Source: Candidatus Acetothermia bacterium
GTDB taxonomy: Bacteria > Bipolaricaulota > Bipolaricaulia > Bipolaricaulales > Bipolaricaulaceae
Direction: 5' to 3'
NCBI GenBank assembly: GCA_024653305.1
Contig: JANLFW010000002.1
Location: forward strand, 11,993 to 75,992
Length of the DNA stretch: 64,000 nucleotides
Positions 26,089 through 39,155 of the stretch are shown here, piece after piece. Numbering within the stretch: position 1 is the stretch's first letter; the number at the start of each line of letters is the position of its first letter. The notes beneath the pieces are model-generated. The model was not told the origin of the DNA. It did not search any database and worked only from the letters and a program-made list of their open reading frames with translations. The translations under genes were made by a program, and so were the position numbers.

Positions 26089-27513
26089 CTACATACCCCT
26101 GCCGAGATGATGGGGGAAGATCTTCCCTGGGTTGAGGATGCCGTTTGGATCCCAGGCCCGCTTAATGGCGGCCATGAGCGCAACCTCAGCCTCGCTGAAC
26201 GCGAGCGGAAGATACTTGATCCTTTTCAGGCCCACCCCGTGCTCGGCGGTGAGGTTTCCCCCTAGTTCCCGGACTGCTCGGAACATGTCCAGTAAGAACG
26301 CCTCGAGATCACGGATCCATCTCTCCTCATCGGGATCATCGCTCACCGGGGTCGGATGGAGGTTGCCGTCGCCGATGTGACCGTACAGGGGCACCTCCAG
26401 GTTTTGCGCGCGCGAGAGTTCCTTCAGACGGCGGGCCATCTCCGGGATCTTGGCCCGCGGCACCACGATATCCTCCACCGATACATGCTGGTGAAGTGCT
26501 TTGAGGGCCTCGGCGATCTCCCGCCTGGCCCGCCAGATCCGCTCCCGGGTCAGGCGGTTGTCGGCCACGAACGCCTCCTTGGCCCCCGCCTCGGTGAGCC
26601 TTCGGTAGACCATCTCGCCGATCTGCCATACCTGATCTTCCTCCATCCCGTCGATCTGGATGAGCAGGTGTGCCTCACAGTCGTCATAGGGGAGGGAAAG
26701 GTTGAGGTACCGTTCCGATGCCCGGATGCTCAGGCGGTCCATGAACTCGATCGTGGCAAGACCGGGCTGTTCGCGGAGAAGCCCGAGCACCTGGGTCACC
26801 GCCCCTTCTAAGGTTTCAAACGGGACAAGGAGGTCGAGCACGTGCTTGGGCTTTACGGTGAGGCGGAAGGTGATCTTGGTGATGACCCCGAGCGTCCCCT
26901 CCGATCCCACCACGAGCTGCACCAGGTTGTAGCCGGTGACATCCTTAATACACTTGCCGCCTAGGTGCACGATTTCCCCGCTGGGGGTGATCACCTCAAG
27001 GCCGTATACCCAGTCGCCAGTGAGCCCGTATTTCACCGCCCGGGCGCCGCCGGCGTTTTCTGCTACGTTGCCCCCGACATGACAGCTTTCTAATGTGGAC
27101 ACATCCACCGGGTAGAAGAGGCCTTTTGCCTCCACCGCCCGCATCATGTCCCCGAGCACCACCCCCGGCTCCACGGTGACCATCATATTGTTTGGGTCGA
27201 TCTCCAGAATCTCGTTCATCCGCTCCAGGGAAAGGACAATCCCCCCGAAGACCGGCACCGCCCCACCGGAAAGCCCGGTCCCCGCTCCCCGCGGGGTGAC
27301 CGGGATCCGCTGCTCATTAGCGAGCAGCAAGATGGCGGCGACCTCCTCCGCCGTGCGAGGCTTCACCACGACCTCGGGGAGGCGTCGGTAGCGCGCCTCG
27401 ATCTCGTCCAAGCTGTACCGTTCCAAGTCCTCCGGGGAAGTGAGGACGTAGGCCTCACCCACGATCGCCCGCAGCCGGTCCACCACCTCCAGGGTCACCT
27501 CGTTAAACCTCAT
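26089..27513 (-). CDS. FAD-linked D-lactate/glycolate dehydrogenase (GlcD/LctD type)
   Basis: A 474-residue flavoprotein of the GlcD family. The PCMH FAD domain is clear: VVVKPRTAEEVAAILLLAN, TPRGAGTGLSGGAVP, TVEPGVVLGDM, CHVGGNVAENAGGARAVKYG and VVGSEGTLGVITK. The C-terminal substrate domain has YGHIGDGNLHPTPV and LTAEHGVGLKRIKYL with the active-site histidines. EtfA and EtfB genes lie directly upstream on the same strand, the arrangement of lctBCD-type lactate dehydrogenase/Etf complexes of Acetobacterium, which drive lactate oxidation with NAD by electron confurcation. A two-component GlcD without Etf is the alternative. The ATG has GGGAGGG. An inverted repeat separates it from etfA. Confidence 0.88.
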   Translation of the reverse strand: MRFNEVTLEVVDRLRAIVGEAYVLTSPEDLERYSLDEIEARYRRLPEVVVKPRTAEEVAAILLLANEQRIPVTPRGAGTGLSGGAVPVFGGIVLSLERMNEILEIDPNNMMVTVEPGVVLGDMMRAVEAKGLFYPVDVSTLESCHVGGNVAENAGGARAVKYGLTGDWVYGLEVITPSGEIVHLGGKCIKDVTGYNLVQLVVGSEGTLGVITKITFRLTVKPKHVLDLLVPFETLEGAVTQVLGLLREQPGLATIEFMDRLSIRASERYLNLSLPYDDCEAHLLIQIDGMEEDQVWQIGEMVYRRLTEAGAKEAFVADNRLTRERIWRARREIAEALKALHQHVSVEDIVVPRAKIPEMARRLKELSRAQNLEVPLYGHIGDGNLHPTPVSDDPDEERWIRDLEAFLLDMFRAVRELGGNLTAEHGVGLKRIKYLPLAFSEAEVALMAAIKRAWDPNGILNPGKIFPHHLGRGM

Positions 27514-27587
27514 GTCTTCCCTCCCTTGTACCTGCAGCCAGACATGAGATGGAACATCGCGAATCCCTCCGGAAGTTATTCGCTTCG

Positions 27588-27661
27588 CCCCGCCTTGGGA
27601 GAGGGTAGGGTGAGGGGGCAGAACGGATTGTCCCCCTCCCCTGGCCCCTCCCACGCCGGGG
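27588..27661. repeat. Long imperfect inverted repeat (REP/MITE-like) between etfA and the dehydrogenase gene
   Basis: A ~31-nt arm beginning CCCCGCCTTGGGAGAGGG faces a ~30-nt arm ending CCCCTCCCACGCCGGGG, with a 13-nt loop; about four fifths of positions pair. The purine/pyrimidine-rich composition is of the kind seen in dispersed intergenic repeats. No second copy was noticed in the window and no target duplications were seen. In mRNA it would be a very stable hairpin. Confidence 0.7.
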
Positions 27662-37217: not shown

Positions 37218-38421
37218 GCTCTTGGTAAGGGGAGGGACGCTCATTTTGGGGGAACCGGCGGAAGCCTGGAAGGGGGACTTGCTCGCCCGAGACGGCCGTA
37301 TCGTTCGATTAGACGAAGGAATCCAAGCTCCGAAAGGGGCGACGGAGCTCCACGCCGCGGGCCTGTACGTGGCCCCAGGGTTCATCGACCTCCACGTCCA
37401 CGGAGGAGGCGGGGCCGACTTCATGGACGCGGAGCCAGAGGCGATACGGACGATCGCAGCCTTCCACGCCGCCCATGGGACGACGACGCTCCTCGCGGGC
37501 ATCCTCCCCGCGCCCGCGGACACGATGCGACGGGCGATGGCCGCGGTGAGCGAAGCCGCCCCTTGCGGGATCGCCGGCGTGTACCTGGAGGGGCCGTTCG
37601 TTCCGCCCAGCAAGCCGGGCGCCCTTGATGGGCGCTGGTTCCTCACCCCTTCACCGGACGCGTTCCGGAACCTTGTTCATGGTCATGAACGCCTGGTCAA
37701 GGTGGTGACCCTCGCCCCCGAACTCCCGGGGGCAGACGAACTCCTGCGGGAAGTCCTGGCGGTGGGGGCGGTGCCAGCCATCGGGCATACCGCGGCCACC
37801 TACGAGGAGACCATGGCCGCCCTAAGGCACGGGGCCCGACACTTCACCCACCTCTGGAACGCCATGAGCGGCCTCCATCACCGGGAGCCCGGTCCAGTGG
37901 GGGCGGCCCTGGACGCGGACGCCTGGGTCGAGCTCATCGTGGACGGGATACACCTCCATCCGGCAACGATGCGCCTCGCGGTCAAGGCCAAGGGATTCGA
38001 TCGGATCTGCTTGGTCACCGACGCCATCGGCGCCGCCGGCCTTCCCGATGGGGACTATGCGCTCGCAGGGCTTCCGGTCCACGTGCACGATGGAGTCGCC
38101 CGGCTCGCCGACGGGACCCTGGCTGGCAGCACCCTTACCATGGACCGGGCGGTGCGGAACTTCATGGAGTTCACCGGGTGCTCGCTCCCCCAGGCGGTCC
38201 GAACAGCCAGCCTTACCCCGGCCCGGCTCCTCGGGATCGCCGATCGAAAGGGGGCTCTCGAGGTGGGCAAGGACGCGGACATCGTCGTTTTCGATGACAA
38301 CTTCAACGTCCACTGGACCATCATCGGGGGCGAGATCGCTTACGCCCGGGAGGGCGGCGCCGGAGGGGATCTCCGCCCCCACCATCCGTTCCCCAGTTGG
38401 TCGGAGCAGGACAAGCCATGA
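37210..38421 (+). CDS. nagA: N-acetylglucosamine-6-phosphate deacetylase
   Basis: NagA converts GlcNAc-6-phosphate to glucosamine-6-phosphate and acetate. The 403-residue amidohydrolase has [17 protein letters not shown] (H62, H64), [16 protein letters not shown] with the metal Glu, [29 protein letters not shown] and the catalytic Asp in [13 protein letters not shown]. It acts on the product of MurQ and feeds NagB, which overlaps by 4 bp. Acetate released here may serve as fermentation end product. Confidence 0.96.
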
Positions 38422-39155
38422 CTCAGCAGTTGATCGTCCGGCGGAGCTATGAGGAATTGTCTGAGGAGGCGGCGCGGATCGTGGCTCGGCAGCTCCTCCT
38501 CAAGCCCGACTCGGTTCTGGGCCTCCCCACTGGCGACACCCCTGAGGGGATGTACCGGGTCCTGGTTCAGCTCCATCGGAACGGGTTCCTGGACTTCTCT
38601 AAGGCCACCGCATTCAACCTAGACGAGTACCTGGGGATCCCGCCCGACCATCCCCAAAGCTTTTCCGCCTACATGCGCCGGCACCTTTGGAATCACGTCA
38701 ATCTGGCGAAGGACAAGGTACACATCCCGGCGAGTCTCCCCGAAGATCCGAAAGCGGAGTGCCTTCGCTATGAGGAGCTGATCCGAAAAAGCGGTGGGAT
38801 CGACCTCGCCGTCCTCGGGATCGGCGAAAACGGCCACATCGCGTTTAACGAACCGGGCACGCCGTGGGAGCGCCTGACCCACGTGGCCACCCTGTCCCTG
38901 GAGACGCGGCGGCGGGAGGCCCGCGCCTTCGGCGGGCTGGAGCAGGTACCCCAGCGTGCCATCACCATGGGGATCAAGACCATCATGCGCGCCCGCGCCA
39001 TCCTCCTCCTCGCGAGCGGGGCGAGCAAGGCGGAGGCCTTGGCCCGAGCCCTGGCCGGCCCGGTGACCCCGGAAGTCCCCGCCTCCGTGCTGCAACTGCA
39101 CTCTGCGCTGACGGTGGTCGCGGACCGGGCCGCCGCCCGCGGCCTTGCCGGCTAG
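38418..39155 (+). CDS. nagB: Glucosamine-6-phosphate deaminase
   Basis: NagB turns glucosamine-6-phosphate into fructose-6-phosphate and ammonia, sending the sugar to glycolysis. The 245-residue protein has [23 protein letters not shown] with the catalytic Asp, [15 protein letters not shown], and the ring-opening region around [11 protein letters not shown] and [10 protein letters not shown]. Start ATG 38418 overlaps nagA as ATGA. Its TAG stop overlaps the antisense stop of polA in one CTAG. This is the last gene of the amino-sugar operon. Confidence 0.95.

Follow-up and report, generated by a model that had tools for sequence, protein, structure and literature searches.

A divergent locus for the probable catabolism of both the sugar and the lactyl half of N-acetylmuramic acid in a Candidatus Acetothermia bacterium

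What becomes of the D-lactate that the etherase MurQ releases (PMC5061867) from N-acetylmuramic acid 6-phosphate (MurNAc-6-P)? It is usually left to unlinked enzymes. Lactate accumulates when engineered Corynebacterium glutamicum grows on MurNAc (PMC6165865), and a use of the lactate moiety has been suggested for mycobacteria (PMC6572805). The question is raised again by a locus in a 64,000-nucleotide stretch of DNA from an uncultured Candidatus Acetothermia bacterium of the candidate phylum Bipolaricaulota (the window, to which coordinates refer unless another locus is named). There, etfB-etfA-lctD, for the two subunits of an electron-transferring flavoprotein (Etf) and a lactate dehydrogenase-like protein, occupy the minus strand, and gntR-SBP-dppB-dppC-murQ-anmK-PBP4B-nagA-nagB (SBP, solute-binding protein) occupy the plus strand across an 80-bp gap (Table 1). 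The window lies within a 124-kb contig of a 1.59-Mb genome (G000) that is 95% complete. A preliminary description had named MurNAc genes and a divergent EtfB/EtfA/GlcD-LctD-like operon, and domain and family matches found all of them present as placed.

We consider it likely that this anaerobe breaks down both halves of MurNAc through a single divergent regulon, and that the D-lactate is oxidised to pyruvate, probably by confurcation. Anhydro-MurNAc or muropeptides would enter the cell through the family 5 ABC system, and AnmK would form MurNAc-6-P, which MurQ would split inside the cell into GlcNAc-6-P and D-lactate, the established chemistry of these families. NagA and NagB would then carry the sugar half to fructose-6-P. 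Indeed, the route to MurNAc-6-P and on to fructose-6-P is complete in the operon, and AnmK, MurQ, NagA and NagB all exceed curated NCBIfam cut-offs. The lactate half would fall to EtfB-EtfA-LctD. Etherase and a probably energy-coupled D-lactate oxidase thus apparently form one regulon.

The substrate of the dehydrogenase

Proteins of the GlcD/LctD family oxidise D-2-hydroxyacids. Among solved structures, the window LctD best matched LctD of Acetobacterium woodii (7qh2_C, E 4.6e-99), followed by glycolate oxidase (6.8e-77), mitochondrial D-lactate dehydrogenase and D-2-hydroxyglutarate dehydrogenase. When the alignment with the A. woodii enzyme was read by eye, Arg328, His377, His384, Glu422 and His423, which bind substrate and metal in that protein (PMC9232219), were found to be kept, and Leu332, Glu344 and Tyr386 to be changed. 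In a tree of 31 sequences, the window LctD fell inside a clade (support 95/96) containing all fetched Etf-linked sequences except A. woodii LctD and that of G044, a distant class member; two clade members without a visible Etf are located at contig ends.

The enzyme might nevertheless act on glycolate, D-glycerate or D-2-hydroxyglutarate, its closeness to murQ being due to chance or to a loose relation. All of the GlcD family shares the catalytic residues, no NCBIfam equivalog matches the protein above its cut-off (GlcD matches best), and a paralogue in the related genome G025 lies near a sugar ABC system and an aldolase. Against this stand the far better match to LctD than to glycolate oxidase and the gene neighbourhoods of relatives, which include the recurring divergent arrangement, the placement of nagA within the lct operon, a comparable cluster in the more distant G291, and a lactate racemase gene behind the G025 paralogue. 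Taken together, they make another substrate very unlikely.

Within the class, murQ was present in 6 of 100 genomes. A close lctD (>70% identity) occurs in five genomes of the family, and both family genomes that carry murQ have lctD linked to it. In G019, from another genus, nagA-lctD-etfA-etfB faces gntR-SBP-dppB-dppC-murQ-anmK-PBP4B (L032). G025 shows nagA-lctD-etfA-etfB facing gntR-SBP-dppB, where the contig stops (L066), and G016 shows nagA-lctD-etfA-etfB up to a contig end at etfB (L067), so that nagA lies within the lct operon in three assemblies. Outside the class, lctD-etfA-etfB faces nagZ-murQ-gntR-SBP-dppB-dppC in G291. PBP4B faces etfB-etfA-lctD in G319, and in G177 a NamZ-like gene (identified by eye) and PBP4B lie about 3 kb from the lct operon; in both of these genomes murQ is on another contig. 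In G187, a glycolate-oxidase-type dehydrogenase and a GlcF-like Fe-S protein share a gene run with a kinase-MurQ fusion and nagZ, which would place a different D-hydroxyacid oxidase in a similar position. The fusion, of 604 aa (L093:12722-14536), consists of a BadF/BcrA-type sugar-kinase domain followed by MurQ and adjoins NagZ; it is possibly a one-piece MurNAc kinase-etherase.

Two observations weigh against a fixed link. The genes murQ and anmK were not found in G016 and G025, perhaps through assembly loss or contig ends, and three genomes of the same class, G051 (L031), G056 (L037) and G075 (L033), have murQ operons without an adjoining dehydrogenase. The coupling is therefore optional rather than a rule. 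As a separate observation, G047 and G056 also hold murQ-nagA-nagB sets resembling that of Bacillus subtilis (L034, L035), with no lactate dehydrogenase and with a NamZ-like gene, a GntR, a BadF-type kinase and a NagZ-like gene (these four partly identified by eye).

For counting, MurQ genomes were collected with a MurQ-only query, as a combined LctD and MurQ query, in which two candidates are scored per genome, under-reports MurQ. LctD and MurQ were no more than 10 kb apart in at least 4 of 70 MurQ genomes (G000, G019, G291 and G187). Outside the class, a rough estimate gives 0.2-0.4 such neighbours by chance, and two were observed, so that neighbourhood alone is evidence of moderate weight there.

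That the substrate is lactate is further suggested by a second operon of G025 (L068:8711-13285), in which etfB-etfA-lctD is followed by larA. Its LctD is 79% identical to that of the window, and its LarA lactate racemase scores 552 bits against a cut-off of 460. Upstream of this operon are a sugar ABC transporter, a DeoC/LacD-type aldolase and a sugar isomerase-like gene. Another lctD copy, 71% identical, in G004 of the same family adjoins the gene of a regulator with an FCD domain; among NCBIfam models LldR fits this regulator best, though below its cut-off. Published lct clusters include a lactate permease and a racemase (PMC8914356), and neither gene occurs in the window cluster, as would fit D-lactate arising inside the cell.

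Thus the functional link between murQ and LctD-Etf, which the preliminary description had drawn through MurQ-released D-lactate, is strongly supported by the conserved cluster, the position of nagA, G291 and larA, and context likewise gives good support to oxidation of this D-lactate to pyruvate by the divergent EtfB-EtfA-LctD. The locus is a new combination of known parts, found in at least two unrelated lineages.

Electron transfer through the Etf subunits

The earlier proposal that D-lactate is oxidised with NAD by electron confurcation fared less evenly. EtfB scored far higher with CarD, Bcd EtfB, FixA and LctB than with canonical Etf, and the best solved match of EtfA was CarE (6fah_A), in an alignment starting only at chain residue 68; by score, both subunits resemble the bifurcating Etfs (CarCDE, Bcd-EtfAB, Fix, Lct) far more than the canonical kind. 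The NAD motif RxFxG (RRFAG), the SPT anchor (GSPT) and the EtfA arginine near b-FAD (TVRP) are all kept.

Two features of the subunits count against confurcation. The b-FAD motif of EtfB reads DGETGQVGP rather than DGDTAQVGP, with two conservative changes, including Glu for Asp. Moreover, EtfA, of 336 aa, has no CxxCxxC and aligns only behind the [4Fe-4S] domain; this ferredoxin domain is absent from the window EtfA and from 13 related EtfAs. The variant motif recurs in EtfB of eight relatives (G016, G019, G025 in two copies, G072, G145, G177 and G319) and, except for its last letter, in G291; four other relatives have DGDTGQVGP. In the A. woodii Ldh-EtfAB complex, the [4Fe-4S] domain of EtfA is essential, and confurcation is lost without it (PMC9232219). 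Bcd-EtfAB, on the other hand, lacks the domain and still bifurcates, and bifurcation by CarCDE survives its removal.

An Etf that accepts electrons from the oxidation of MurQ-derived D-lactate and passes them elsewhere, as a canonical Etf does, would agree with the missing domain and with DGET in place of DGDT, and canonical Etf-Ldh pairs are known in Fusobacterium (PMC12630350). Such an Etf is harder to reconcile with sequences far closer to bifurcating Etfs, with the retained NAD and SPT motifs and EtfA arginine and a b-FAD motif kept but for two conservative changes, with the performance of Bcd-EtfAB and CarCDE without the domain, and with a cluster that has no Bcd gene; we judge it unlikely. 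Confurcation itself is plausible from the EtfB motifs, and likely but unproven, because A. woodii needs the domain and Bcd-EtfAB and CarCDE manage without it.

If electrons from LctD do pass to NAD together with those of reduced ferredoxin, pyruvate:ferredoxin oxidoreductase could give the ferredoxin back; POR_N-domain proteins of this kind were present in five of five genomes tested. The sum would be D-lactate + CoA + 2 NAD -> acetyl-CoA + CO2 + 2 NADH, with ferredoxin recycled. If the reading of the locus as a whole is right, the complex would offer a natural test of whether an Ldh-EtfAB lacking a ferredoxin domain is able to confurcate. We give an even chance to a broader proposal, that a distinct Ldh-Etf clade, with EtfA lacking the ferredoxin domain and EtfB mostly carrying DGETGQVGP, includes members dedicated to internal, MurQ-made D-lactate, so that several unrelated lineages of anaerobes would draw energy from the whole of MurNAc, both arms being under one repressor.

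Overlapping promoters and a candidate operator

In the gap between the operons, bases 29600-29604 are common to the -10 boxes of the two opposed promoters, as had been noted before. Four promoter-like sites, including this pair, occur in 13.5 kb, and 2.1 are expected on shuffled sequence. The same geometry is kept in two other genomes, where the plus promoters read TTGACA-16-TATACT (L032, G019) and TTGACA-17-TATAAT (L066, G025), and the minus promoters TTGTCT-17-TAGTAT and TTGTCT-17-TATTAT, respectively. An opposed pair with near-identical spacing in two more genomes is not due to chance. From the geometry in all three genomes, the two transcripts are predicted to start about 18 bp from each other, which is the most frequent spacing at bidirectional promoters of Escherichia coli (PMC12825309). 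The gntR start codon begins about 13 bases past the -10 box (29604-29617) and about six bases after the predicted start of transcription, which would leave the message nearly leaderless; this codon also falls within the putative operator.

The regulator carries both the GntR helix-turn-helix (PF00392) and UTRA (PF07702) domains. Its candidate operator in the window, TGTACAGACA, was revealed only through comparison with relatives: exact TGTATAGACA stands at the equivalent place in G019 and G025, and occurs once in each of these assemblies, only at this gntR site. In G075, from another family, TGTATATACA occurs twice at gntR. An operator of the GTNTANAC type is thus exact in G019, G025 and G075. 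The window copy carries one mismatch to the site of its relatives, which counts against the proposed reading of the locus. As a marker of the window operator, the exact pattern GTNTANAC was discarded, with two matches elsewhere, which is chance level; nor was TGTATAGACA at G000:C6:9255 (L092), its one occurrence in the source genome, near the start of another open reading frame (ORF), counted as part of a regulon.

The site TGTATAGACA of the relatives, or TGTACAGACA in the window, is overlapped by the gntR bases ATG-TAY-AGA-CAA. The conserved arginine codon AGA is uncommon, at 3% of arginine codons for the window genes and 9% for L032, and its retention suggests that the DNA site, and not the protein alone, is conserved. 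A HutC-type GntR repressor on this single operator would cover the gntR start codon, the etfB -35 box and the start region of the gntR promoter, so that one dimer could close both directions, and both operons would be silenced until a sugar-phosphate effector appears.

There may, however, be no common switch, if the minus promoter arose as a side effect of the symmetry of the -10 box or if GntR acts on its own gene and the sugar arm but not on the lct operon. Such symmetry often yields incidental divergent transcription (PMC12825309), the minus promoter reaches just 9/12, and TTGTCT overlaps gntR codons and is hence under coding constraint. Yet TTGTCT-17-TAnnAT is kept in three genomes despite a differing spacer, the rare AGA is retained, and the gap holds no other minus promoter of 8/12 or better. 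Separate control therefore seems to us improbable, and a shared switch for both operons, the bidirectional control proposed earlier, is well supported by the overlapping promoters and the conserved site. Beside the nagA-lct cluster of G025, nagB is preceded by another GntR-UTRA protein (L066:1778-3906), with 53% identity to that of the window, which may be a separate, related regulator for the sugar arm in that genome.

Source of the MurNAc, gene inventory and known systems

Whether the organism lives on peptidoglycan, as had been suggested, is less clear. The presence of anmK agrees with this. A GH3 NagZ gene lies beside murQ in G291 and G187, and its apparent absence from the source genome is a difficulty: no PF00933 match was found in G000, at 95% completeness, or in G019. 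Release of anhydro-MurNAc may thus be left to others or to a different hydrolase. With five Mur_ligase_C proteins encoded in the source genome, the cell probably builds peptidoglycan of its own, and the locus could serve to recycle its own wall rather than to feed on foreign material. Besides these two findings, recycling would suit AnmK, which acts on a product of lytic transglycosylases. It accords poorly with murQ being an accessory gene in the class, with a dedicated importer in the operon, and with two arms that both feed energy metabolism. We think recycling somewhat unlikely as the explanation and feeding on peptidoglycan plausible; the two are not mutually exclusive. If the reading as a two-armed regulon is right, the locus would serve to recognise, from genomes of uncultured phyla, anaerobes that feed on the remains of cell walls.

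Table 1. Genes and control elements of the divergent locus, in window coordinates
Feature	Position	Strand	Basis
lctD-like D-2-hydroxyacid (D-lactate) dehydrogenase	26089..27513	-	PF01565+PF02913 (FAD_binding_4/FAD-oxidase_C)
etfA, bifurcating-type, without N-terminal ferredoxin domain	27713..28723	-	PF01012+PF00766
etfB, bifurcating-type	28733..29536	-	PF01012; motifs DGETGQVGP, RRFAG, GSPT
gntR promoter	29577..29604	+	-35 TTGACA 29577-29582, 16 nt, -10 TATAAT 29599-29604; 12/12
etfB promoter	29600..29628	-	-35 TTGTCT 29628-29623, 17 nt, -10 TATTAT 29605-29600; 9/12
candidate GntR/HutC operator TGTACAGACA	29618-29627		overlaps gntR start codon and minus -35 box
gntR, GntR/HutC (UTRA) regulator	29617..30372	+	PF00392+PF07702
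family 5 (oligopeptide-type) ABC solute-binding protein (SBP_bac_5)	30482..32029 (start approximate)	+	PF00496
dppB-like permease	32038..33039	+	PF00528, PF19300
dppC-like permease	32987..33892	+	PF00528, PF12911
murQ, MurNAc-6-phosphate etherase	33907..34839	+	TIGR00274, 342 bits vs cut-off 302
anmK, anhydro-MurNAc kinase	34921..36090	+	PF03702; NF007148 above cut-off
PBP4B/YfeW-like serine hydrolase	36087..37217	+	PF00144; PBP4B best NCBIfam match, below cut-off
nagA, GlcNAc-6-phosphate deacetylase	37210..38421	+	TIGR00221, 317 bits vs cut-off 226
nagB, glucosamine-6-phosphate deaminase	38421..39155	+	TIGR00502, 271 bits vs cut-off 237

The lctD start is most likely 27513 and not 27705, to which the ORF is open, since relatives begin at the aligned position; nagB most likely starts at 38421 (ORF open from 38397). 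The locus is flanked by a nucleotidyltransferase gene and a possible glycosyltransferase on one side and by DNA polymerase I on the other, and an Rfam search of it gave no match. Between etfA and lctD lies a 199-nt insert (27514-27712, minus strand), where relatives have a 7-nt gap or a 4-nt overlap. Its RNA is predicted to fold stably, with a long G+C-rich hairpin (-91.8 kcal/mol, z -3.5), and no second copy was present in the sequences examined; it is possibly a palindromic mobile repeat.

In the open-access literature we found no paper linking murQ to an Etf-lactate dehydrogenase or describing this arrangement, in agreement with the preliminary description, which knew of no earlier account. 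The closest relative of the minus-strand operon is the A. woodii Ldh-EtfAB (LctBCD, PDB 7qh2), which shares the family, the metal and catalytic residues, bifurcating-type EtfB and EtfA, and the order etfB-etfA-lctD. Unlike it, the window complex has an EtfA without the [4Fe-4S] domain, the motif DGETGQVGP and a separate place in the tree, and it is linked to murQ and nag genes and has no lactate permease or racemase beside it. The lct clusters of gut Lachnospiraceae and Fusobacterium likewise join a D-lactate dehydrogenase to EtfA and EtfB, but they act on lactate from outside the cell and also carry a permease, a racemase or butyryl-CoA dehydrogenase (PMC8914356, PMC12630350).

The plus-strand operon recalls the E. 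coli murR / murQ-murP-yfeW divergon, with MurQ, PBP4B (YfeW, whose gene belongs to the E. coli murQ operon; PMC5061867), a divergent regulator setting and the route through MurNAc-6-P. In the window, however, an ABC system and AnmK replace the MurP phosphotransferase system, a GntR/HutC protein replaces MurR, nagA and nagB have joined the operon, and the lactate dehydrogenase complex stands opposite. Finally, the regulator shares with B. subtilis NagR (YvoA) the GntR and UTRA domains and, in its candidate operator, the form GT-N-TA-N-AC (NagR site GTGGTCTAGACCAC, PMC4333415), and differs from it in the site itself, TGTATAGACA in the relatives, and in the placement of a single site where it could close two divergent operons.

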